From: Membranipora membranacea
Taxonomy: Eukaryota > Bryozoa > Gymnolaemata > Cheilostomatida > Membraniporidae
Direction of reading: 5' to 3'
NCBI GenBank assembly: GCA_914767715.1
Contig: OU612072.1
Coordinates: 14,384,001 to 14,448,000 of the forward strand
DNA length: 64,000 nucleotides
Every line of letters begins with the position of its first letter. Position 1 is the stretch's first letter. Position numbers and translations under genes: made by a program. Below, one piece after another: positions 3,101-60,500 of this stretch. Under the pieces are notes generated by a model. That model had not been told where the DNA came from and did no database searches. It saw only the letters and a program-made list of their open reading frames with translations.

Positions 3101-6100
3101 AGTTCTGAACCTTTTCAACACCTGCAGTGGGTTGGAAAGTGCTGTTCGGTAAGAACGGTGTGTCTGCGGCATAAATGGCCTTTATATCCTTCATAGAATG
3201 GTAACTGTCAACATGTATACTATTCATCAGGTAGCAAATCTCTTTTTTTTCCAAATTTCTTGACAGTTCTATTGGGGTTGATCGCTTGTGGGGACTAGCT
3301 TGATTCGCGATTTTGCCAAACTTCCATCATTGATTGGTGAATGGATGTGTTCATTAGAATTAAAGTTTACGCGACATATAATTTTTCTAAAATTCAGTAT
3401 TTTTTCAGTGCTGTATCTGAGTTGTCTGCCTCCTTGCCAAGGCAACAGAACTCCAAAATCAACAATATTCTCTCATGAATATCTTACCTTTTTCAGGGAG
3501 TCAGTTTTAGAGTATCCCCGTTTGCATACATATTAAGCCTGCATTAGATAATGCAAGACAGATATCATTCAAGATTATGATTCTACTTATGTGGTAGCTC
3601 CAGAAATTATAAATAATCCGTTTCCATATCCATAGACTCTGGTATCTTTAAAAGCTTACAAAGACCATTTTCTTTCTTTTTCCTTATTAGATTGACGATG
3701 ACACTATGGTGAATCCTTATAACCTTGTGACCTTTCTCAAAGGCCAATCAGAGATCACCATGTCAGAGATTATATGTAAGGTCACTCAGGGTGTCGGACC
3801 AATACGTAACCCTAAGAGTAAATACCATGTCTCAGTAGGGGAGTACAAGGATGACTACTATCCGCCATATTGTCAAGGTAGGTTATAAAACCACACTGGT
3901 GACGTGATGTGTATGTATATCTCTGGTCAATAGAGAATGAATTAATTCACTTTGCGCGAGTACCATCAAAGGGAATTTTATTTGACGACCTTCAGTAAAT
4001 TTCAGCAATTAGGGGTAGGTATTTGTTATTTACTCATACTAAATAGACTCTTACGATCAGAGATACACAAGTTAATAGTGTAGTCTCGATGTCAGTGTGA
4101 TATCGAATGGAATGCTACAAGAAGGTTGTCCTAGTCTGAGTGCTAAGATGGTTGCAATTGTGTGCTTAGTAATAAATTATCAAGCATAAATTTTAATGTT
4201 TGATATTTTAATGCCACAAACAGGCACTTGCAGCTGTCTGAGGACTTAGACTAAGGTCGTCCGTACAAAACTTGAATAGGTCAAGCTTGAACCACACTTT
4301 GAATCCAGTATTGCTAGTATGAGTGTGGCTTAATGTGAGCTAGCAACAATTTCGACTACCTAGTTTAAGTGCTCAAACGGTGCAAGATGCTGGTAGAGGC
4401 AATTCATTATCAACCACTTTCTCCCCAGTGGTTGATAATGAAATGCCTCTACCAGCATCTTGCACCGTTTGAGCACTTAAACTATCGGCTACCTAATGTG
4501 GGAGTTTATAGCGATTAGTCCGCACAAAACTTGAAGATAGTCAATCTAGAAAAGTGAATACTGGCTTTATATTTAGTACATCTACCTTGAGGGCGGCTTA
4601 CTCTTAGCTAGCGCCAATTTCTGTTAGCTAAGGTTTGAAGTTATTATTGTCTACTGAGGATGTGTAAAAGTTATCTAGTCGTCAGTTTCAACTTTTCAAG
4701 CATGTGCAATAAGGCTACCTTCTTCATATGGGAATACTCTACCCTTTTAGGGTATTTAGGACTATGCTAGCGACCTGGACTGTAAATTTGGTAGTACCTC
4801 AAACACGGCACACATAAGTGGTAGCCTACTGACTCATGTCTAGAATAAACTTTTTTGTGTAGTTTTATATTAATGAGATTTAGGAGTAGTCTATTTATTG
4901 GTTTGAGTTTGTCTCACAGAGAACCCATCATTTTGCTCAAACCATCTTAATCTTCTTAGGCTATGGATACATCTTCCCTCCAAAAGCTCTTCCTCGTCTA
5001 GTCAATGCAGTCGGAAAGTCAAAACTCATAGCTATGGAAGACGTTTATCTAACAGGTAAGGTTTAGTTATATTGTCTCTCTGTTCTATTTTAGCCATTGA
5101 GTTGTTAAATCATCCTGATGTTTGTCTGTATAACTTAATGTCAGGGAGTTTGTCCCAAAACTCCCTGTTGAAGTTAAGCTATGTTTTTCTTGTAGGTGAT
5201 TACCCCACTCTTGCCGTGAGCAGACAACTCCTTGATAAATATGTAGCGCATGTAACAATTATAGCATCATTTTTTACTGATAGAACATATAGCTACTCAA
5301 TTTAACTTAGACAACTTCTGAGATCCAAGAGCCACCAATATTATTTTAATATGTTAAATACTGCTTTGTTTCATAGGTATCACTGGGCAGAATGCGGGCG
5401 TGAGACTGCACCCCCTAACTGCTATGTTTGCGACAACTTTCTCTAAGTTTGAGTTGTTTCTGGAGAGGATAACTACCAGACCAGAACTGATGATAGTCGG
5501 TCACGTACATGAAGCAAGGTGGGTAGTGCTAATATTTACTGGCCTTGCCAGGCTTTCATGGGTGGGTTAGGGCTATTCCTTCCTCCCCCCGCCAATGTCC
5601 CACCCCACCCACAGATTGACTCAATGATAACGATTTTAACACTGAGAAGATTCGGAGCAGAACTGCGATTCGCAGTACAGCGATTCTCAGTACAGATCAA
5701 AAACAGGATAAAACCGGTGTTTCGTAGAAATGTGGAGTTGATTTAAACCACCGGCTCTTATAAATCGTCGATCATCAGGGTGATTTACTGATCCTGATTA
5801 TCACACAGTGAAACCTATGTCTTACATAACCCATTTGATGTAACAGATTCAGTGGTTGAACAGTTTGATATAGTACTCGCTTACATACGATGGTGGCAAT
5901 TGTAACTCATGGATTATTTATGGTATATGTCAACTAATATGTTGCCTGTTCTTTTATATTCTATTATCGCGGCACAACAAACATCACTTTTAAATCTGAG
6001 TCGACACTCGACAAACACCCAAGCCGTCGATGAAGTAAGGTAATTTATTTTGGATGATTCTTTCAGATATGTGGAGGTCTTTTGGCACTTAGCAAAGCAA

Positions 6101-7912: not shown

Positions 7913-10900
7913 CTATTTCTGAGCAGTATCAGTAGATACAGTGGCGAGAGAAGGTGGAGGAGGAAATTTGACACTGGATCGTCTCCTCTTGAATTTCTTT
8001 TCATTAAATACTTTGAATCTGAGATCATCTTCACCAAACTCATCTTCATCCTCAGTGTCTGAAAACTGCTCCTTGTCTAAATCTGCCTTCTCTCCATCTG
8101 ATAACAACATCCAAATTGAAAAGTCTATGAAGACAGCAAAGTGGAACCACAGGATGGAATGAGGGTATCCTAAAGTAGTAATATAATGCCAGGGGCCGAC
8201 GAAACCACTCCTCTTCAATAGCCTCCGACCTCAGCTAGTCAAAATTTAAAGCGAGCTAACATTAACTCATCCCAAAATCAGGCCAAAATAAACTCTAGCT
8301 TACAGTTTCACCTCTGGGGTATATAGTAATATATGAATACATATAATTATACACTTCTCAAATCCAATACAAAACAGGTGGCAGGCGCTATAAATTTATG
8401 CAAAACTATGCAATAAAATTGTGAGCAGTTTTATTTGGAGTTGTCCTCTTACCTTCCTCATCCTCTACAAGTGTAAGCAGAGCTGCAGGTATCTGTTTGA
8501 TGCTACTCGGATTAGTCTTTAAAGCTTTCTCCATCTCACTTTTAGTTTTGAATCCTAACCAGACATATAAGCCCTCATCCTTCTTGCACTCCACTAGTAA
8601 CCTGGACCTGGTCGATTCTGGTATCACTCCTAGAAATATTTAAAACACTCATACTTATTTGATTGAGAAAATAAAAGGTTGATTAAAATCAGATGTCTTA
8701 TCACAAGCCACATCCTGAAGCATGGGCGGGGCAAGACCGCAATATCTGCGCCAGGTCGGAGCACACCTTGGGTCCAACCAAACCCCATAAGTTGAAGGAC
8801 TGCAGTGGGATTCAAACCCACGACCTTTGCATGCCAAAGGAACGGCACTCTAACCAACTGAGCCACCTACTACTCCTATTTATACCTTGTGATAAAACCT
8901 TGATGTTACTTGTTTTTTTTTCTATATCAGCACTGGTCTACAGACTGCATACTATGGCATAGGGGTATTTGATATCGGATGGCCTTCCTGACACCACTGT
9001 GAATCAAACACAAAAACTCTAAATTGGACGACCCATACCCTACCCATTGCACAAAGGTCACTGCCTTTCAATATTTCAAGCTTGATTTATATAGAACACA
9101 CTTTATTGGCTAGCGGCTAAACGGTCGTGAAAAGGGAGCGGTGAGGGCTTCAAACCAAAGTCGTTCTTGTGGTATTCAGGAACTATGCAGGTCTCATGCA
9201 GGGACTATGACCATGTAATGCTGATACTTTTTCGCATGTCATTTCAGATATATTAGTATTTGAGTCACAATGCTGTTCAGAATAAGGTCAAAAGCTTCTT
9301 GCAAAGCCATTATCTAGTTCTAGTAGCAGTTTTTAACCTTTAGTAACTGGAGTGAACTGTTAGCCTCACGATTTCAACCAACAGATTAGCTAACATGGTG
9401 AATGCAGATGGCAACTATGTATTTATCAATATCCTACGCACCTAGATCAAGGTTGATCCAGTTTGCCTTCATTCAGGTTCTCTCCCCTCCACTGATAAGC
9501 CACCGGGCAATCAGTGAGAGAGAAGCAATTCCAATACGAGCAAACTAGACCAAATTTGGTCTTACGCACCTGTATCAAATGGATTGTCGACAATGTCTAT
9601 ATAGGAGTTTTTAGACTTTTCGACCAGCATGTTTAGAGTTTTGACGTTCAGACTTCCCTCTGATTTTAGTCTCTTCAGATCAATCTTCACAGCTCTAGAG
9701 TTCCGCCGACTTCTGTTGCACTGTAAGATGTCAATAAAAATGTTATACAGGATATAATACATTATAGCGAGATGTTGGAATTCCTGATAGTCGCGTGTGG
9801 CAAGATTAAGGCTCTATTTTATAGCCTGATAATGAACTTGCTGAAACTGAAGCCACAATTTAATTTTTTTTCTGCATTTCTACTCCTAGTTAAATTGAGT
9901 TGAGGGAGATATTCTACCCCTGTATTTAACAAAGGGTTTGTGTCCCCAACCCCAGCAAATAACTATCTGCTGAGAATATATGTCAAAATGTAACTCAACA
10001 AGTTGTTTGTGAGCTTTGGTGTTGTAACCAGTCACTACAGAACGGTTGTCTTGTCGTTTTGACAGTTTTTAAATGGTGAATATCGTGCAATTTGCATCTT
10101 TCAATTTGTATGTCGTGTTTGCAAATATAATTTATGCTCATCTATTAGCAGTCATATTTGGCTGTAATTTGTGACTGATTGGTTTACCTGAGGTGCCGTT
10201 GTGATTGGTCGATCAGTCAGTGTGCTCATCTCTCTGTCTCCTAGACCTGAACTCTTTTTATCACAGAATATTTTGAATGTTTCCTGTCTCAGCTCCTTGT
10301 TTTTCTCATCTATCATTTCCTCTTCTTCCTCTGCCTCCACCTGAGAGCCTGTCGAGAAAAACAAGCACACTAATTAAATTTTAACTGAGACTCTGACCGA
10401 AACGAGGATTTGCTCTTGCATTTATCGTCAGTCGGTGAATCAATATCCTGCCTTCTAACTTGTTATGGGAGATGCCTCAAACATGGATCATTATCACATC
10501 ATGATGCTTTTGCATTAAAAATCACTATGAGTGTTTTGGTTTCTAGCATGAAATGATTTGGTTCAATTTCAGAGTGGAGGAAAATGAGTTGGGAGTTATC
10601 CCCTTTGTTTATAGGAGAAGACAAATGTTAACATGAGAAACATTATAATTGTTCTGTCTCTATACTAATTCAGCAAAATTGTCCCGAGATGATTTTCAAG
10701 TGCAGCAGGATTCAACAATGGATCTCATCTTTGTTACTCAATTTTTCTTCGAGTCTGTACTCTACCACCATTGCAGCTTTCAGAGACGTGCTTATCGCTA
10801 TTAATCATTTCAATATACTATTATCTGCAATATGTGATGCTATAAATGTAGCGTCTTACAGCATTGGGGCTCCCTGCCTATTTTACCGAAGACTGAACAT

Positions 10901-13900
10901 CGGGCGTTTGAAAGTTGAAGAAAAGATTTGGTCAGTTTGAATGAAACCTGTAGAGAAGATTTTCCCATTTCCAGGCAAAATTGAAGAGAAAAAAAGAAAA
11001 TCACCTTTGTATACTATTAAAGTTGTGTGCAAGGCTAGCTCAATTCTTCAGATTTAGGACCAGTTTTATGTCCATTGTCCATTCGATCGGTTTTTTTGAT
11101 GAATATAATCTGAAGATGACAGAAATTGAAGATAGCTTTGCTTGGCAGACAGAGTTATATAGTATTTTATTTTTGTCAACACTACGAAAATGGGTCAAAG
11201 TTTTCCTGTGACTTTGCTATGTGTAGAATTAAATAAATTATAAAAGGTGTTATTATAACCTTATCCAGTCGTACATTTACTGAACATACCTGTAGTTTTG
11301 GGTCTCTGTTTGTATTTGAGTGACATTTCACCGAGGCGAAGCTTTAGTCTTCTCAGCTCATTCTCAGAGTATCGTATTTTGTTTCTAAGACTGATGATGA
11401 TTGGAGAGTACGGTTCAGGTGCTGTAAACGGAGTATTGGATCCGCGATCAGGTACCTGGAGTCATTAACAACATTTTTGATATGTTTTTAAGGATTTCAG
11501 GCTAAAAAGTCATTAGGGCATGAGGAATATTACAGCCTGTGAACCTAATTGCAGTAAAACTGCTGCAAAGTCTGAAAATTTAGATCACAGTGGATCAAAG
11601 TGTTTTATTGCCTCCATCTGAACACTATGATCTACCATGATCCTTGCTTTAGATCCTTACTAATATGCCATATCAAAATATAGTTCATCTGAAATGGACA
11701 TGGTATTGCCCTGCCTTGACACTGTGTACTAAATGAGCACATTTGGAATCTCCCATCACATGAACACAGCAGACCTCGATGACACAGGGTTCAGAGAAAA
11801 GTATGTGTGCTCTTGTGTTTTACTGATCAGGTTCTAGCCGTGGATATAGGAAGATATCTGATTGTGGGCATACATTCCAACACATATAAAGAGTATTGAA
11901 CATAAAACCTGACCCATTTTATAGTGTAGCAGGGCTATTCTCAGTTCGATCATTCAATATATAAGCTGAGAATTGTGGGAACAAATCACAGTTACGGAGT
12001 GGCAAATGTTGATGAGCTCTTAGCTACATTTTCCCACAGACATAGCTATATTTTCATTTTATTCTTCAAACAGATATGAGCAGACAACTGCATATTGATT
12101 GCAGGTGTTGTGGCAGCTAGTTTTAGAGATACCAGCCTACTTGACTGGTAAATTATGTATTTATGTGTAACCGACATATCAGTATTGGAACAACTAGAAA
12201 GTTGAATAAAACTCATGTACGTTTTAATTAATAAATTAATATCTTTCACAATTAAAGTAGAAATGCATTGTGGGATACCTCTACCATGCTCGACTGAAAA
12301 TGAGTCATAACAACACATCAAAGGGGCTTGAGCGATTGTGAACTCATTCATTTGGTTGATTGGGGTTAATCAATTGCAGTGTTCTTCCAGTGAAGGACAG
12401 AGAAGAATATATACCGTCCTGGATAATGTGCTTTGCTTACATTTAGGCTAAGTTGCAGATCCAGGCGTGACTTCAGTTTTTCCAATGCGGCTAACGAATC
12501 TTGGTACTCTGCCAAATGTTTCTCCTACAATAAAAATAACCTTTGTCTGGTTGGTGGGTTGTCTGGTTGAAAGGTCTGCTTTCATTGTTGTCAATATTAG
12601 CATCTAAGAGATGATTGGTCTCTAAAAACAGGATATTAATTTCCTTCATTGCAGTTGGACACTGCACTGCACCAAGATCGATCGGTTGAGTAAAAATCTG
12701 CAGAAGTATCGAATAATCAAGCTTCTTGATGAGCCAAAGAAATACACTCATTTCTGTTATTCGTGATTGCCAAAGAGAAGTTTGAAAGTTTTAGTTTTCA
12801 ACAGCCTCCATGAGGTTAATCAAGGAAGTCCCCAATAGAATTATAATCTTCTGCTTTAGTAGATAGAGACTACCATGGATGTTAGAAAAGACCTTAGACT
12901 TAATTATTTATTTTTTCTATTTGTCTGACACGTTCTTATATAATGTCTATTGTCTTCTCAATGCATGTTTTGAACGGTTTTCAATAGTAAATTTCACATC
13001 ATCATCAAGTCTACACATTAGCACTCACCTTTAACCTATTTAGATCAGACATGGACCTGCTCACAGAGTCAGATGATATAGCCTTAGTTCCCCGCCTGAT
13101 TGAGCCTATAGCCTCAGGATCACTGTTAGAGTAAGATCCGTATTTAATTCTGGGTGTCTCTTTTTGGTCAGGCGATGAAGGCACTTCTGTGATAAAGGAT
13201 TTGCTAGCTGTTTTCTGGGAAAAAAAGACTTGACACTTGAACGGGAAATGACAGTGTTAAAAATGGTGATTGAATTAATGAAATAAATTGATCGTCTGGC
13301 CATTTCATTTTCATGGCAAGCAGTAAAGCATACCCTCATAATTTGTTGCTGTTGCTGCAGTTGAACCTCGACAAGGCTGAGAAGGCAACATCTAAACACA
13401 ACTCAAATATACCATACAGCTTGTCAACAAATACCAATTGTTGACCAGCTAGAAGGCTAAATGGGGTATTGCATAATCAAATTATCTGTGATAATGTAAT
13501 GCCTCAAAACAAACTTACAGCTGTCTGAGAGATAAGACTATAGTATCGGCAGCATTACCTAGATCAAGTGTAATCCTTGATTCCAGTTGCTCCCCTCCCA
13601 CTGGTCACGCTGCAGCCAAGGTGTGTCAGAAGGAGGGGAGCAACTCCGAATGCAGGCAAACATAATAAACTTGGTCTAGCATTACCTGTCGTTGAGTCTT
13701 GGAAGCGTTGAGAGATTTCTGATATGAAGCCATTTGTCTCCTCAAAGTATAGGAGTCCTTTTTGTGAGCTGCCTGACAGATCACCATCTCTAGGTCGTAG
13801 AATCTATACATAGACTTCAACGTCACATCATCTATCCTGTGTTATAAATAAAGTTATCCAAATAGACGGCTTGTTCCTAGATTATGCTTGTGAACAACAT

Positions 13901-15087
13901 CAATACAATGGTATCTATTTATTGGGTGACTGGTAGTCATTTATAATACACTGAGTTTCCATGGATCAAACTAGGGAGTTTGCTGAGTTGTGCACACCAT
14001 GTAGACGGCTCTCAGTTTGCACTGAGCTCGAAGATTCAGTTAGCGCTGAGCTGTTCCAACTATAGCAAGCTGGCAAGGTTGAGTGATTAGCATCGAAGAC
14101 ACTAAGTTAGAAGAGCCGAGTTGGATTCGTGACCGTGGCAGTATTTATTGAAGTGTCAGCTTGATCTCAAACCATTGGAACAGATGCAGTTTGCTCAGGC
14201 AAAGCAATACAACAAGTTTTAAATAAAAATATCACTGAACAATGGTCAATACAAAATGATCAATAATCAATAATCAGTTAAAGATAAACAATCAGTGTGA
14301 CACACGTTTTTTTTGGCAGACTCTGTCATCCTGGTAAGATATTTTCCATAAAATACCAAAAACTAAGGAACGAGCAATCTCTTTTATGGAGAAAAGTTGG
14401 AAAGTAGCAGAAACACTATAATGGTTTTTGGCCAGCTGGGATGGGTGTCTTTGTAAAGTGAAGAGGGTGAGTTAATGTCAGCTAGATATAAGTTAGCTAT
14501 TTCCAGCAATGCACAATGGCAAAAATTTCCTCCTGCTAATACTTTACCTCTCTGGTGTAGGTGGGTTAAACTGTATTGGCCAGTTCTGCGATATCACTCC
14601 CTGCCTGGGGGTGGGGCATAGGGGAGTGACAAGAATTTGGAAGGGGGAGGCTCAAACTATGTGATATCAATTGTGTCCCAACGAGAGAAGCCACATTCTT
14701 TGAGTAGGAGGTGGCTCAGTTGGTTAGAGCGCTGGACCTTTAGCATACAAATGTTGAAGGTCATGGGTTCGAATTCCACTGCAGTTCATCGACTACTTGG
14801 GTTTGGTTGGCCCCCAGGTGTGCTCCAACCCGCCCGCAAACAGAGAGCAACCTGACGCAGATATTGCAGCCACCACTAAGGCACTAATATTTCGCCGCCC
14901 ATGCTTCGGGATGTGGTGTATGATAAAACATCTGATTTTAATCAACCTTTTTAATCTAATCTTACCTGGTGAGAGTCTCAATTTTCTTCTGGCTGTTGTT
15001 AGCTACTCTGGTAGTGAGGCTCAGTTTAGTTTTAGTTACAGCTTTCCCTTTACCCTCCACCACCGTAGGTAAACCTCCTGGCTTCAT
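7913..15087 (-). CDS. Unrecognised 460-residue charged coiled-coil-type protein, nine exons, complete
   Basis: Exons, in transcript order: 15087-14966, 13836-13686, 13214-13029, 12524-12441, 11455-11290, 10348-10188, 9720-9570, 8629-8453, 8097-7913. All introns are GT-AG and the 1383 coding bases close in one frame. An in-frame TGA 9 nt before the ATG fixes the start. I do not recognise the family. Visible: a basic N-terminus (1-40), a helical LTRIDDVTLKSMYRFYDLEM segment, a Ser-rich middle (about 95-150), short amphipathic helices (EKHLAEYQDSLAALEKLKSR and RYSENELRRLKLRLGEM), an EAEEEEEMIDEKNKEL acidic helix (about 241-256), a compact 'GLYVWLGFKTKSEMEKAL' segment, then an acidic stretch followed by KKFKRRRSS and PPPP near the C-terminus. 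No membrane segment or signal peptide is seen, so it is probably cytoplasmic or nuclear. Introns carry two SINEs and two identically placed MITEs. Confidence 0.8.
8675..8878 (-). mobile_element. tRNA-derived SINE family 1, copy a
   Basis: On the minus strand the element begins GTAGGTGGCTCAGTTGGTTA (Pol III A box) and carries a B box like GGGTTTGAATCCC, then the family body (GGGGTTTGGTTGG, GTGTGCTCCGACC, CGCCCATGC) and the tail GATTTTAATCAACCTTTT. It lies in the intron between exons 7 and 8 of the minus-strand gene, in sense orientation. Confidence 0.9.
9444..9562. mobile_element. Hairpin MITE at 5' splice site, copy B
   Basis: A 119-bp element bounded by AGATCAAGG... and ...TTTGGTCT (inverted AGAYCAAG ends; imperfect homology of about 24 bp into each arm, including GTTTGC). 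Inner arms CACTGAT/ATCAGTG add a hairpin. It is flanked by a 9-bp direct repeat TACGCACCT (9435-9443 and 9563-9571). Read on the gene strand the repeat is AG|GTGCGTA: the last two bases of exon 7 plus the first seven of the intron. Confidence 0.85.
13561..13677. mobile_element. Hairpin MITE at 5' splice site, copy A
   Basis: A 117-bp relative of the element at 9444-9562: ends AGATCAAG...CTTGGTCT and a perfect inner inverted repeat GTTGCTCCCCTCC/GGAGGGGAGCAAC. It is flanked by a 10-bp direct repeat AGCATTACCT (13551-13560 and 13678-13687). On the gene strand this is AG|GTAATGCT, again spanning an exon/intron junction, that of exon 2. Confidence 0.88.
14703..14953 (+). mobile_element. tRNA-derived SINE family 1, copy b
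   Basis: A full-length copy with A box (GTGGCTCAGTTGGTTAGAGC), B box (GGGTTCGAATTCC), the body and the GATTTTAATCAACC tail. It is antisense in intron 1 of the minus-strand gene; its 3' end stops only about 12 nt from the exon 1 donor at 14965. Confidence 0.92.
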
Positions 15088-17234: not shown

Positions 17235-18213
17235 AGCAACATCACTGGCTACTAACTACAACAAGCCACTCTTTTTTGTTCGACTGAATCATTAAATAGG
17301 GAGTTTATTTCCCTGTCATGTACCTGTCATCTGGTCAAAGAAAGCGAAATCTGATAGCGTTTGCAGCCCCCTGCAAGCGTCTCCCTAAAACTGCACCGAG
17401 TTTATGCTTGGGGGTAGAATGACGCATCTCTAGGCCTTTTGGTTTTGATTCATTGAATTGCCATTGCCTAATTTTCAATGTAGGTGATCTTACATGGGTG
17501 GACAAAGCAAAGGTTGTGGTTATGATGTCTAGATTGATTGATTTACTCACTGTCAAATTCCATCCCCTGGTCACTTACTACGTGTGAGGAGATTCTCTCA
17601 GATATGTTAGTGTACCTGTGCAAATGCTGTGTTCACTGCTGTGCTTACAAAAACTTAATTATTCAAGTGTAAAAATTCTACAGCTAACAAGGGTCCTCTT
17701 CCTTAGGGAAAATCTTCACAGGGAAACAACAATAAATGTGAACGGAGTTCCTAATTTGCATCTGATACTGTAACCAGAAAGTGATATGTGCGTCAATCGT
17801 ACTGAATCTCTGCTGAATTTAAGTGTACGTGATGGTGTGCATGGTCATGTCAGACATAAATATACGTATTTGTGATATTTTACATATTAGTATCTTCTCA
17901 TGGTAGCACTTTTGACGCAGCTAGTTTTCATGGTTTGAGACCAAGGAAGCATATGAAGCTAATGAGCCTGTGATAGGATTGACTGACAACTTCTTTATTA
18001 GCTTGGCTTGGCACATGTGATGATGCGATTGCGACAATTCTGAAAATCAGCATGATGTTATAGCCAGAAAATTCAGTAATCAAACTTGGCTATCGAATCT
18101 ACTTGGAATAGGCTAGCTGAGTTTTGGTCTTTGATGTCAAATTTTAGATGGTGGCCTTCCTCACACTGAATAAATATGATACAATAACAGTACAATCCTT
18201 AAGATCAGCAGTA

Positions 18214-18458
18214 GGAGTAGGAGGTGGCTCAGTTGGTTAGAGCGCCGTCCGTTGACATGCATATGTTGAAGGTCACGGGTTCAAATCCCACTGCAGTCCA
18301 TCGACTACTGGGGTTTGGTTGGCCCCCTTGTGTGCTCCGACCTACCTGCAAACCTGAGAGCGAGTTGGCACAAATATTGCAGCCTCGCCGTTAAGGCACT
18401 ACAATTTCGCCGCCCATGCTTCGGGATGTGCTAGTGATAAGACATCCCGATTTAAAAT
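18214..18458 (+). mobile_element. tRNA-derived SINE family 1, copy c
   Basis: Full A box and B box (GGGTTCAAATCCC) plus the family body ending GATAAGACATCCCGATTTAAA. I do not find this copy in the corresponding stretch of the second duplication unit (around 33780), where the flanking GATACAATGAGAGTAAAATC continues without it, so it inserted after the duplication or was lost from unit 2. Confidence 0.9.
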
Positions 18459-20524: not shown

Positions 20525-20930
20525 ACATAGTTCAAGTTTGATCCATTTTGCCACATTGGAGTTGCCCCCCTCTTCAAGAGAATTATCAATGAAGAAAATT
20601 ATCAACCAGGGAGGAAGGGAATTCTCACTGCTTTCCAAATTTTATCCAAAACTGCAAGGCTGAAATGGTTTATCCCTTTGAATAATCAAACCAACCTGGA
20701 TCAGGGCATTGGCAAATGGCTACAACAGACAAACCTTCGGAATGGTGCAATGACATGATATCTTGATGTCATATGGATAAAAATTATTTGTTTATTGACT
20801 ATCATCCTATGTTGGCATCACAATTCGAGGTCATTACACTAAATCACTTCCATGTCCTGATTGGGTTTAAATCTATAGCATCCTCATATTGACAACATGT
20901 CAAATATGATGGCTCATAGGAAGTGAAGTG
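20525..20930 (+). repeat. Interspersed repeat related to 40500-40860 and 43275-43410; its start resembles the splice-site MITE
   Basis: Bases about 20670-20930 align with 40500-40860 and partly 43275-43410 (GGCATTGGCAAATGGCT..., ACAAACCTTCGGAAT, a CATCCT/CATATTGACA/CATGTCA end block). The stretch at 20528-20575 (TCAAGTTTGATCCATTTTGC) is about 80% like the terminus of the MITE at 9444. A second terminus could not be matched cleanly, so the relation is tentative. Confidence 0.45.
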
Positions 20931-30500: not shown

Positions 30501-32248
30501 ACTGCTGCTCTTGTGACTTGAGCTCAGATCACTTTGATGACAACTGTAAAGCTCAGCTTGAACTTAATCTTTGAGCTCAGTGCAAAGCAGGAGGCAGTCA
30601 ATGGCTTGAATAGCCGTGAACTACAGTGTTTCCTTCCATAAAAATCTAGCTTACCATGAACAAACTTTTTCAACTATTGTCGGATTTCTAACAGAAAATC
30701 GGCAACACTTCCCAATTACTTATTCTATTTATTTTGAGCCCTGTATCCAATTATTTTAAGATATGTCATGCATTATATCAGTTTATGTAAACCATTAAGG
30801 AGTAAGAGGTGGCTCAGTTGGTTAGAGCGCTGGACTTCAACACGCAAGTGTTGAACGTCGTGGGTTCGAATCCCACTGCAGTCCATCTTCTACTGGGGAT
30901 TGGTTGGTCCATCAGGTGTGCTCCGACCTGCCTGCAAACAGAGAGCAAATTGGCGCAGATATTGCGGCCTCGCCATTAAGGCAATACTATTTCGCCGCCC
31001 ATGCCTCGGGATGGGCGAGTGATAAGACATCGGATTTTAATCAACCTTTAATCATTAAGATCAAGTTAAATAAGGTTAAATTTTATGGAATGAAACCCTG
31101 ATACATTTAAACTAGTCATCTCACTAGTGTTTCCTTATTCTTGACAGGCAGGGTATCGAGGGCATGTATGACATCTCATATGCCTGGTCTAAAACAGGAG
31201 GAACAATCATCACCATGATCGTAGCAGTTATCGTCAGTCTTGTCTTCAGTAAGCTACATAGTATTTTTGCCCAATCGGTCTGAGGTTAACTGGTGCATAT
31301 ACATTTATATTCAATGCATGCAACGCTAGTGTTGGTACACAGGTTCCTGCCCACCAAGCTAGTTCATGTAAATTTGCCCCTTCCTGCCAAGCTATTTTCC
31401 ACCGATTCCGTATAACCTGGCAGACTGAACTTCAGTAAGTTATAAATAGTTATTGCTGCATTAAGTACTAAAAATCAGGACTTTGGAGCTAATATAGGAA
31501 TCAGGCAATAATTGAGTTTGGGGTGACCTTTCTTCCAAGGAATAGAATGCGTGATAAAGCAAACTCCCATCCTGCAAGAACTGAACCTATTTAAATTCTT
31601 TTTCCTAAGACATAAGAACACATACCCCGTATAAATTTAATATTCATTGTTATGATGTATTCTCTTCATTAATTGCCATTCTTTACTCATAATTTTAGAA
31701 TCGAAGGAGAAAGTAAATTATAGACTAATATCACCATTAATTGCGAACAGTAAACATCTCCCTCAATCTTGGAGAGAGAACATAGATTACAATGAGGATG
31801 AGGCTATCATGGCTCATCATAAGGCTTACCTCGCTTCTCGTGAGGTCGTAGAATCAGAATCAGAGTCAGATTCTGAGCTAGATTCTATAGAGGTAAGATT
31901 AGTCTGTAAGACATACAATTTTATTTACAAAAGAATCTTGACGGTGATATTTTTTCTATTTAGTAAAAAAGTTTACCTTTTTCATTAGGTTGGGTTGTCC
32001 TAGTGGCACTTCCAAAAAAATTTCAGTTTCTCCATAAAAACATGCTAATTCTAAGTCATGCAATACCCACAATCTGACTTAGAATTGGCCTAAAATGGCT
32101 TTGTTGGGGATGTACCATCGTATTTAAAATTCACAGAGGTAAATTGATAAGCTATCTTGCACATATCATGACTGTAATTGTATGTCTATTTATTCAGGGC
32201 AAGGTTAATGAAGGTATGAGTATGGAACAACTGGAACAAATCTCATAG
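24517..32248 (+). CDS. SLC5-family sodium-coupled solute carrier (SMCT-like), copy 1, complete
   Basis: Fifteen exons: 24517-24701, 24874-25033, 25330-25395, 25591-25642, 25938-26005, 26770-26924, 27468-27620, 27951-28080, 28782-28870, 29062-29245, 29569-29686, 30108-30270, 31148-31248, 31699-31892, 32198-32248. All are GT-AG with consistent phase: 1869 bases, 622 residues, close to the 610 of human SLC5A8. Family marks: DYVVLGVVLVASAAIGFYYA (TM1), SWISSLSILSIPGEIYSFGT, YIELRFDKAAKL, GGMKAVLWTDTMQ, RMRHTIWNQ, VSVQRALSLSSRS, CDPIENGEI.SDQ, PGLPGFVLSAVFSGS then LSTISSMMNALATIAMSDF (TM8, Na2-site Ser/Thr region, about 350-357), MYDISYAW and the last membrane segment at about 523-541. An acidic, Ser-rich cytosolic tail follows. 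It probably moves monocarboxylate-like substrates with Na+ across the plasma membrane. Residue 262 is Ser where copy 2 and SLC5A8 have Asn before Gln. Substrate is inferred only from family. Confidence 0.92.
27644..27730 (+). repeat. 16-bp minisatellite after SLC5 exon 7
   Basis: About five degenerate units of AATCTAAAGTGGAAGT follow the exon 7 donor. The same array stands at 49210-49280 in copy 2, so it predates the gene duplication. Confidence 0.75.
30801..31051 (+). mobile_element. tRNA-derived SINE family 1, copy d
   Basis: A full-length copy (GGTGGCTCAGTTGGTTAGAG, GGGTTCGAATCCC, TGGGGATTGGTTGG, GATTTTAATCAACC) in intron 12 of SLC5 copy 1, sense orientation, about 95 nt before exon 13. 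It is absent from the same intron of copy 2. Confidence 0.92.
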
Positions 32249-55345: not shown

Positions 55346-56986
55346 AACATACATGATGACAGCATTCTTTGGGTCACTGTTTTCATTGATCTGTGGTTTA
55401 TGGGTCTCGTCATATTCTCAGTCAACAAATTCTGTGACCCACTTGAAAATGGAGAAATATTAAAAAAGGATCAGGTATGTGGGAAAAAGAGCATGTCCCG
55501 ATTAACCAGTTCAAAACTCACTAATTCAAATTGTACACACATTTCTCCATGATAAATGTTATCAATACAACCAATACAATCAATACAATCAATACAATCA
55601 ATACAATCAATACTATCAATACAATCAATACAATCAATACAATCAATACAATCAATACAATCAATACAATCAATACAATCAATACAATACAAGGATCACT
55701 GGTAAGTTTACGCACTATGTGGCGATTTGTGAGGGAATCGCTTTATAAACAAATTTATAGACCCTTGCTTCAACATTGTTATACTATTACAGTACTACCC
55801 TCTTTATGTGATGAAGCTACTGGGAAACTTACCGGGTTAACCAGGGTTCGTCCTCTCTGCAGTATTCAGTTGTTCTCTCAGGTATGTATCTCAGCCCCAC
55901 TTTGCGCATGTTTGTTATCTTTTCACCGTGGCGATTGAAGTAATAGAAATGTGCTTAGTTCTCAACAGAAAAGTCAACCATCCGAACTGGTGATCTTGGA
56001 ACTCAAACACGATTGGATTAATCCAAATGCTACGGTGCGGAGAAACTCTTATCACAGAGTCGATCTGCAAGCAGAGTGTCTAAGCCCTGTCTACTCATGA
56101 AAAATGTCAAAATATCAATTGCCATCGCTAACACACGTAATGGCTGTAAATGAAATGTTTACACTTTCTGCAAAGTTGGAAAGAGGACACAATTGCCTGA
56201 TTATCAAGGTCGTCAGATTTCAGAGATTTTGCTCTCATAAACCATAATAACTCTCCTGACCCTGTTCTTAGAAGAAAATTTCCCTTGATAGGAACATTTT
56301 GTAGCCAATTCTCTGTGTGAAAAACTCTGAATTTAAGTTTGCATTTCATGACTAATATTTTTTTCTACAGTACCATCAGCTCAAAAATGAATTCGCTGGC
56401 TACAATAGCGATGTCTGATTTTGTGAAACAATTCAGACCAAAAATGACAGATATATTGACATGCAACAATTGTCACCAAGATCATAACTTTGATACTTGG
56501 ATTAATCTCAGCGGTGCTAGTGTTGTTTGCCCGACAACTTGGCAGCTCACTTATGACGGTAAGTTAAAATATCTCTAACCCACCACCATAGCTTAGATAT
56601 ATTCTCACACTCTCTCATATCATATCACAAAATTTGTGAAATTCCATCAGTTTGAAACCTAACCGGATCACTTGCATTTAGGGATATGAATGTAAGATAG
56701 CGTAACCACAAAATGTAGTTAAGTTTTTGTCTAGCACAAGTTTTTGCATACAATGCAGGAATGAATTGCCATTGCAGCTCACATAACCAACAAATACAGA
56801 ATGCAATTACTGTGCTTTTATTTTTCTCAATCATAGTCAAAAACACCATAACAATTTTTAAATTACAGATGGTCATCACACTTTCGGGAATATTTGGAGG
56901 GCCAACCGTTGCTGTATTTGCATGCGGGATGTTCCTTCCGTTTGTCAACAAGAGAGGAATCATAGTTGGTTTTAATATAGGGGCTG
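55346..56986 (+). pseudogene. Truncated third SLC5 copy, exons 8-11 only
   Basis: Four exon-like blocks keep their splice sites: 55346-55474 (exon 8, 129 nt instead of 130, a 1-nt deletion near TGTGGTTTATGG), 55793-55881 (exon 9, TTA changed to TAA at 55838-55840), 56371-56558 (exon 10, 188 nt instead of 184, a 4-nt insertion near GATATATTGACATG) and 56869-56986 (exon 11, intact length). Exons 1-7 and 12-15 are absent. Two frameshifts and a stop make it non-functional. Exons align with both intact copies. Confidence 0.92.
55561..55690. repeat. 9-bp minisatellite (AATCAATAC)n
   Basis: About 14 nearly perfect tandem units of AATCAATAC, with early variants ACCAATACA and ACTATCAAT. It lies between exon-8-like and exon-9-like blocks of the SLC5 pseudogene. 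The period of 9 keeps all frames open (Ile-Asn-Thr on one strand, Cys-Ile-Asp or Val-Leu-Ile on the other), which explains the long frames here. Confidence 0.95.
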
Positions 56987-57565: not shown

Positions 57566-60500
57566 TTACTTATACACCGCAATGGAACTTTCTCTACTTG
57601 GATGACACTGAACAAAATCTCTGATGACAGTTTGAATGTCCAGTGTATCCGTTTTGTTCTTGTGAACATGTAGCAGTAATAGATGATTTAATTTACCCTG
57701 CATCATTGATGTACGCCCAGCTGTCTTGAGCCTACTGAGAGCAGAGAACGAGCGCTCACTAGACGCATTTGTGGCGGGTAACACTACAATCAGTTTCAAA
57801 ATTTTGAATATGATAGGATATAATGATTTGTTTATTATTAGGTTATTTTTATAAGACGCTATCACAGTTGTGATACCGTCTTTCACAATGTCGTCGACCT
57901 TCTTATAAACCCTCAATTCGGCCTCAAGATCAAAGCTATAAAAGCCATAAGCATCACATATTGTGGATGTGGATGTGGCAGGATTTGCACCAGAGCAAAG
58001 GAGCAACTCGATCTGCAAGAGAAATTCGATGCCCTTCTGCTCGAACCTGGCTTTGATGCCGTTTATGGCCAGGTCAAAAACCTCCATATAAAGCTGGTGA
58101 CTTTTCTCTTTTACGGATAACATCACGCCAGTCCCGTTACAGTCATCTAACCAGACAGGTGTCCTTCTCACTCGGCCTTCCTTTGGCGGATCAACATCTG
58201 ACAAATATACACAGAGCACATCTTTTATTGTGAGGTTGATGTAATAATGCAATATAGCTTGGTAGCAATTTATTGATTACGCCACATGAAGTTGAACAAT
58301 GACACCAAATTCTGGCTATCTTTACAACTCCTCTCCTAAGCATTGACATGTCTATAAATTTCTGCTACTAGCTGAATCCCATGAGGCAGCATGGATAGTT
58401 ACATCCGCTCCTTGTTATATTCGATGCAGTCAGGTCTAAAACATAGAAACTAACCTAGTTTTTCCTGGTATTGAGAAGTTTCTTTCCAAAGCATCTCAAA
58501 GTCCTCGTCACTTCGCAATCCCTCAAGAGTACGAATGTACTTAGATGCCAGTGTCTGGGCGTCAGCTACCGTCATCTTTGCAGATTGGAGAGTGGTTGAC
58601 AGTTTGTCTGTGAGGGTGAAAACCCTTATCCCGAGTAGGAGGCCTGGAATAGTAGGATAATTAATTAATAGCATTTGATCTAACATTCAGCCAATTATAC
58701 AAGACAGTATCTCACTAACACTTTCAATAATACTCTCTGGCGGTAAGAGTTTGTCTCACTATGGTAAGAGATTATTAATTTCAATATCTAATCACCATGG
58801 AAATTAAATTATTTGGTTGGAAATCAATAAACAGAGGGATAGCGTTGATTATACCATATAGAAATCTGTGCTGGCGCATCTGATAGACAGCAGCAATGAT
58901 CCGGACTAAAGAGTTGGCAGCCGTAGCATTAGCAGTAGTGGTAGATGTTTTCAGAGATGGCCACAGCTCCTGTAGGTATTGATAATTCTGGAGCAGCTTG
59001 TTCATGGTTTCTGCTCGTACAGTCCACCTGAGGTATGGCAAGAGAATGGGATTAAATCAGAATTGTCAAGTTCTGTTAAATAATAAGAAAAAGAATATTC
59101 TTTACTGCAGGTTTAGATGTGGCTTCAGAAATTAACATGAGCGCTTGTGCTTGCTTAAATACCTAGTTGGGCAAAAGGTGGTGATTCGACCGGCTCTATT
59201 ATAATTGTCTGACTGCTGATCATCTGCAGAGTCTTTGATGCTTTCCAACATCGCGTTTCGTTTTGGAGACGATCTTATGATAGAACATATCTCCCCAACT
59301 GTAGCAAGCGTCTCTTTTAGTAGCTGACTGCCTGTTACAGAGTCTTGCACAGCCAAGTTCAGTGCGTGAGTGTGACAATGAATATATGGTGCAAGAGGAT
59401 TTTCCTGCAATAAAAAAAACACAGGTGTGCTCCTAGTGTGCTCTAGTCTCAAACTATCTGGCTAGCCCATTGGTGCAAATTATGATTTTTTAGTCAATTA
59501 TTTTTCTACAATTTGATCAACAATAAACAGACAAAATCTATATCCTGTTGGTTGTAAGAGCAATCACAGCGCATCGAAGATGTTATTGCAATTGTGGAAT
59601 TAATGCAATGTATTGACTCGGCAATGTTGTGGGCATCAAGGTTCTGGCTGCATCTGCCATTACCTGATATATTAGAGTAGATACTCCACTTTTGTGTCCT
59701 GACATAACACTGGCTCCATCATAGCATTGCCCACGGCAATTGGCAAGTGGTAAGTTGAGGCGCAGTAGTATGTCCTTGATGCTGGTGACAATGCTCTTAG
59801 CGTTACAGCTAGCCATGTCCATCATACCTAGAAAGTCTTCAGAGGCTTCTAACTTGTCGTCCACTGTTCTATAAATTAAGGAGATATTATAGCTAGGCTG
59901 ATATCGTGAGAGTAGTGCATGGGACAGAAATTTGCTGTGTATCATTTAAAAATTCGCATTCTGGAAAAGTGCTTTAAATCTCGCTTATCACCATTCACAG
60001 TTGGGCCCACGCTTTTGATGGGTGATGTATCGACTGCCATATCACATAGTCAAAGCTATTCAAAAACCTCAAGAGGAAACACATCTGCTCCCTGTTAGAC
60101 CGGTCCGACGACTCATCTAGCATGATGGAAAAGAACTTTCGCGCTCTGATATCTCCTCTAAGATATTTCGCAGGACTTGGTTTGCCATCAGTGCTATGAG
60201 CTCATTCTGTACTGCTGGACTGGTATACTGAATAGTGTGGATAGAGAACATGTTGTGCTGTTTCAAGAGAGCATCAAGCAACTGTATAAAATTGCTGTCA
60301 GGTTTGCTGAGAGAACTTACTGTGTCCTGTAACAGCAAGTGTGGTCATATTATTACATATTATATTATATTATATTATATATTATATTTATTCATACAGT
60401 GCATCAAAATGCATGCTAAGGCCGTATGTCACAGCAGACTTTATTTGATTGCCTGGTGATGGAATTAATAAATACCTTCAACCAACTTGAAAAGTTATGA

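Follow-up and report, generated by a model that had tools for sequence, protein, structure and literature searches.

The window, the whole 64,000-nucleotide stretch of DNA analysed here, lies on chromosome 8 of Membranipora membranacea and carries on its minus strand a gene whose coding part (7913-15087), defined by a gene model and a homologue, comprises nine exons encoding 460 residues. The reading frame of the model is open across all nine exons and all eight introns are of the GT-AG type. The protein contains no Pfam domain at an E-value of 0.001, and among 7992 scored candidates its sole homologue at that E-value or better is Watersipora subatra P0001, an uncharacterised protein that is 50% identical. 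Exon 2 (13686-13836, minus strand), which ends at 13686 in CGACAG|GTAATGCT, and exon 3 (13029-13214, minus strand), which follows it in phase 0, are placed by both the gene model and the alignment with P0001, and this alignment crosses their junction without any extension and with just one gap, of one residue. Exon 7 (9570-9720, minus strand), which ends at 9570 in ATACAG|GTGCGTA, and exon 8 (8453-8629, minus strand) are placed by the gene model; exon 7 lies outside the coverage of P0001, and the reading frame by itself supports the intron 7 junction. Splicing preserves the frame at both intron 2 and intron 7, and homology also supports intron 2.

Two copies of the same MITE family lie at the 5' splice sites of introns 2 and 7, in the same AG|GT register, as the original prediction had claimed. 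Copy 2 is 117 bp long (13561-13677, no strand assigned; HMM match at 13560-13678, 87 bits) with termini AGATCAAG / CTTGGTCT, and its canonical TAGATCAAG...CTTGGTCTA ends span 13560-13678 when the flanking T and A are counted. The predicted flanking repeats are present as exact 10-bp copies of AGCATTACCT at 13551-13560 and 13678-13687. The upstream repeat (13678-13687, minus strand) reads AG|GTAATGCT and, in agreement between the gene model and the earlier claim, covers the last two bases of exon 2 and the first eight of intron 2, of which it is presumed to be the working donor; the downstream repeat, AGGTAATGCT (13551-13560, minus strand), is a decoy second donor inside the intron. Copy 1 is 119 bp long (9444-9562, no strand assigned) and is flanked by exact 9-bp repeats, TACGCACCT, at 9435-9443 and 9563-9571. 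Its upstream repeat, AG|GTGCGTA (9563-9571, minus strand), is the presumed donor of intron 7, and its downstream repeat, AGGTGCGTA (9435-9443, minus strand), is again a decoy. Reading past the second repeat meets an in-frame stop within 7 codons for copy 2 and 3 codons for copy 1, and therefore neither copy is a new intron within an exon. The single, empty-site form of the target would be AGGTAATGC or AGGTGCGTA.

A scan whose sole requirements were a 9-bp repeat and a 12-bp terminal inverted repeat (TIR) found both copies and two other loci, and ten shuffles of the same scan gave one match in total. The window also contains a one-ended relic of the family (20529-20574, plus strand). Other repeats in the window include a near-perfect palindrome at 4361-4484 with 58-nt arms that are 98% complementary and an 8-nt loop, a dispersed repeat with a common tail that by eye resembles a tRNA-like SINE (8753-8878, 14701-14813, 18213-18343 and 30798-30910), repeated gene-like blocks at 24374-57006 that are mostly 20-22 kb apart, 83-94% alike and by eye transporter-like, and a 9-bp tandem repeat (ATCAATACA-like) with 14 register copies at 55525-55706.

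An abundant MITE family with a 9-bp target site duplication

Searching the 339.3-Mb genome (18 contigs), we collected 107 independent copies outside the window: 36 with copy 2 as the query, 37 with the element of locus L041 and 34 with copy 1, duplicates (L031-L033, the same as L030, and L135, the same as L122) having been removed before counting. The copy 2 query gave 40 scored places, of which 39 were fetched, the remaining one being the copy in the window; three of the 40 scored for the L041 element were already in the set; and the copy 1 query gave 40 places besides copy 1, of which 35 were fetched, one lay within a fetched stretch and four near-identical places on C6 were omitted.

The canonical ends of the family are TAGAYCAAGTTT. 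Collecting copies, as the original prediction had suggested, yields both a consensus of 124 bp, a long imperfect palindrome with TIRs and the ends TAGATCAAGTTT...AAACTTGGTCTA, and a target site duplication (TSD) of 9 bp; the element ends are uncertain in many older copies. The flanking repeats are exact at 9 bp in 18 of 73 copies, at 8 bp in 2 and at 10 bp in none, and a 9-bp TSD with at most one mismatch is found in 32 of the 73. Of the proposed duplication of 9-10 bp, distinct from the 8 bp of hAT elements, the 9 bp stands for the family and the 10 bp does not. For copy 2, a 9-bp TSD and the loss of one base at the element end would account for the 10-bp repeat. Elsewhere in the window, at 57566-59945, there are pieces of a hAT-type transposase (a Dimer_Tnp_hAT match and a DUF4371 match below the cut-off), a superfamily that differs from what the 9-bp TSD of the MITE suggests.

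First-look candidates numbered 640 for copy 2, 2603 for the L041 element and 108 for copy 1. The 270 kb of flanks hold 16 extra copies or relics, equivalent to about 20,000 genome-wide, and five strict ends, equivalent to about 6,300 ends; these densities may be too high, the flanks having been picked around known copies, and some of the extra matches may be remnants of seed copies with misjudged ends. The copy number is thus uncertain, and the family is an abundant, non-autonomous TIR transposon of which both window copies are old members. We found no description of it in the accessible parts of the introner, recursive-splicing and bryozoan-genome literature. Patterns compared with viral and bacterial collections, which may lack records close to the genome of the window, gave 0, 7 and 5 matches.

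Target preference and insertions in the donor register

The target was derived from an unbiased set, for which an element-only query supplied 37 young copies and those with no more than one mismatch, 21 in all, were kept; logos that mixed in the first sample, whose query carried flanks, were set aside. In symmetrised form the target has T two bases outside, G at positions 1 and 2 and C at positions 8 and 9. GG is found at a target end in 12 of the 21 copies (7.2% background at window positions), GGT in 6 (2.2%) and AGGT in 3 (0.75%), the last a roughly 19-fold excess on small numbers. The preference for AG|GT that had been proposed is real, but it is part of a wider preference for GG, and 18 of the 21 targets are not AGGT. 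The target of copy 1 itself scores below the genome average (0.56). With GGTAAAC-like repeats between and on either side of two adjacent copies, locus L029 (1985-2211) looks as though one target had been struck twice.

A stronger claim was that the family prefers splice sites or splicing-linked chromatin, meaning that, over and above any sequence preference, the transposase would favour the 5' ends of introns through open chromatin, R-loops or splicing factors. We consider such targeting unlikely. Among the 71 copies from the element-only samples, 26 of which have a clear 9-bp TSD, none carries a strong donor at the offset seen in the window copies (0/37 young copies and 0/34 older relatives of copy 1) at a threshold of at least 5 bits, which is strict enough to miss the donor of copy 2 itself (3.8 bits). 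L122, also among the 71, bears a donor-like motif in a different register. Strong in-register donors do occur in the first sample, in 2 of 36 copies (L042 and L056), an enrichment that was dropped as biased because the query carried an ACCT flank and so selected for ACCT.

The exact pattern GGTRAGTNN|TAGAYCAAGTTT, which is limited to consensus donors at intact ends and so leaves out the window donors GTAATG and GTGCGT, occurs at five places in a whole-genome scan (L042, L056, L137, L138 and L139), and its reversed form matched nowhere. At least two of these places and probably four are exon ends, which may favour targeting: exon ends are recognisable at L042 and L137, likely at L056 and L138 and unclear at L139. 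L042 is a nuclear-receptor zinc-finger exon (Pfam zf-C4, E 0.034, below the cut-off) with the next exon readable downstream, L137 adjoins the end of a conserved WD-repeat exon, which we take to be WDR20-like, and L138 adjoins the end of a plausible exon. With an assumed 8-fold GG effect, a factor based on 21 sites, the expected number of such places is 2.9 for 2603 ends, 6.9 for 6278 and 21.9 for 20,000, and without it 0.4, 0.9 and 2.7; these end numbers are estimates, the denominator for the five sites being the genome-wide count of TAGAYCAAGTTTRRTCC. The five observed are not above the 8-fold expectation, and GG preference alone therefore suffices. Together with the 0/71 result, this tells against the proposed preference for splice sites.

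Two further observations favour targeting. Among the 107 copies, donor-like motifs within 100 bp are directed toward the element in 16 cases and away from it in 4 (10 and 2 in the 71 element-only copies); part of this asymmetry may stem from the GT of the target logo. Moreover, several copies lie 12-60 bp inside introns, about 12 bp from the donor at L036 / L063, about 27 bp at L048 / L064 and 53 bp in the gene of L042, but these examples were recognised by eye. From their translations we take the exon before the L036 copy to be C-type-lectin-like and that before the L048 copy to be NAA15-like; neither translation has a Pfam match. The nuclear-receptor gene of L042 is another gene with two copies near donors, the second (L042 1261-1362, the same as L061 5261-5362) lying in the next intron, 53 bp after its donor.

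Differences in survival could also place old copies at donors, if insertion were random and donor-adjacent copies lasted longer since deletions reaching the donor are purged. Copies 1 and 2 diverge from the consensus by about 31% and 17%, respectively, against a median of 8%, yet their repeats are still perfect, and this agrees with survivorship, as does the lack of strong in-register donors among young copies. However, the older relatives of copy 1 lack them too, and because copy 1 has no full-length relative closer than 78% identity among the 40 scored, its divergence partly reflects the age of its subfamily. Constraint on both donor copies, considered on account of perfect repeats in old elements, is weakened by the same 78% figure. 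We regard survivorship as very improbable.

The double hit itself had been called very unlikely by chance. Taking 16,112 genes (the Flustra figure) with eight donors each and 2600 to 20,090 copies, the target logo predicts 3.6 to 28 donor-register insertions genome-wide and between 0.0004 (2600 copies) and 0.02 (20,090 copies) genes with two of them; uniform insertion gives 0.00003 to 0.002 such genes. Two donor insertions in one gene remain unusual, and rarer than the logo predicts, which speaks for targeting. The double hit is not taken as proof of targeting, because it was picked for its oddness and the donor weight is based on 21 sites. In our reading, a family with thousands of copies struck one gene twice by coincidence.

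Splicing consequences and relation to known systems

The window copies are probably the result of ordinary GG-preferring insertion, with a transposase supplied in trans, old copies standing beside intact donors and the double hit being coincidental. The site that such a transposase would cut, and whose 9 bp it would duplicate, is loosely palindromic, with one end reading GG and a T two bases beyond it. Exon ends, which read G|GT, would satisfy half of this target, and the cut would then fall 7-8 bases inside the intron. Indeed, the first 7 or 8 intron bases are unchanged as seen from the exon, the cut lying behind the donor, and with the donor so preserved insertion would be close to neutral. 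The second repeat would be a by-product, a decoy donor separated from the first by a stable RNA hairpin. With 60-nt flanks the window copies have predicted folds of -78.5 and -75.0 kcal/mol, and the mean unpaired probabilities of the upstream and downstream donors are 0.31 and 0.46 for copy 2 and 0.35 and 0.20 for copy 1, so that neither donor is clearly favoured. We infer that the upstream donor is used rather than the decoy.

A donor insertion might instead create two abutting introns with a zero-length exon between them (GT-element-AG|GT-old intron-AG), and either donor would give the same mRNA. Were the decoy used first, the leftover element would be a removable GT...AG intron, and transposition would build recursive, stwintron-like introns in an animal. 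The AG at the element end has a pyrimidine fraction of 0.53, a value reached by 48% of all AGs, and the acceptors of the gene average 0.66; this average tract may argue against an introner or recursive function, and we think the abutting introns very doubtful. The bryozoan genome is an assembled one with public poly-A RNA reads from the same specimen (ERR6464929), and the family is abundant in it, so that the duplicated donors are directly testable.

Ordinary GG-preferring insertion invites comparison with three systems. With the MITEs of Mutator-like elements (MULEs; MuDR) the family shares a short, non-autonomous, palindromic TIR element, thousands of copies and a 9-bp TSD, a length that MULEs habitually make. 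By TSD length and TIR structure we regard it as a candidate MULE-type member. Recursive splice sites and stwintrons, in the parts of the accounts consulted (PMC8605326, PMC12403724), share CTAG|GT, an AG with a regenerated donor and an arrangement like a zero-length exon. They differ from the window copies, which have a poor polypyrimidine tract.

The third system is that of introners with splice sites recruited from the TSD, which Huff et al. reportedly described in 2016. In the sections consulted of Gozashti et al. 2022 (PMC9860276), introners share with the MITE its TIRs, a TSD, AG|GT and a GT that the TSD could supply, and the main text, so far as it was available, has no occurrence of 'bryozoa' or 'Bugula'. 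If the MITE were itself an introner, the target repeat would supply its GT, and the element end together with the repeat its AG (CTAG|GT), and exon insertions would be spliced out precisely. Element end and repeat do read CTAGGT in the window copies and L042, as expected from the TSD-derived splice sites of known introners; however, both window copies lie at existing introns and meet stops on reading through, the acceptor at the element end is no better than a random AG, and the second repeat of L056 no longer reads GGT. Elsewhere, the screening covered the copies of the first sample, for open frames only; an exonic introner was rejected at L042, a nuclear-receptor donor with its next exon further on, and at L056, where a stop follows soon after. 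An introner is thus a most improbable reading. In contrast to introners, the window copies stand beside pre-existing donors, have created no intron and offer a weak acceptor. A plain GG preference and a 9-bp duplication can nevertheless put a transposon exactly at an exon-intron border with splicing intact, and such a placement is a possible half-way state towards introners.
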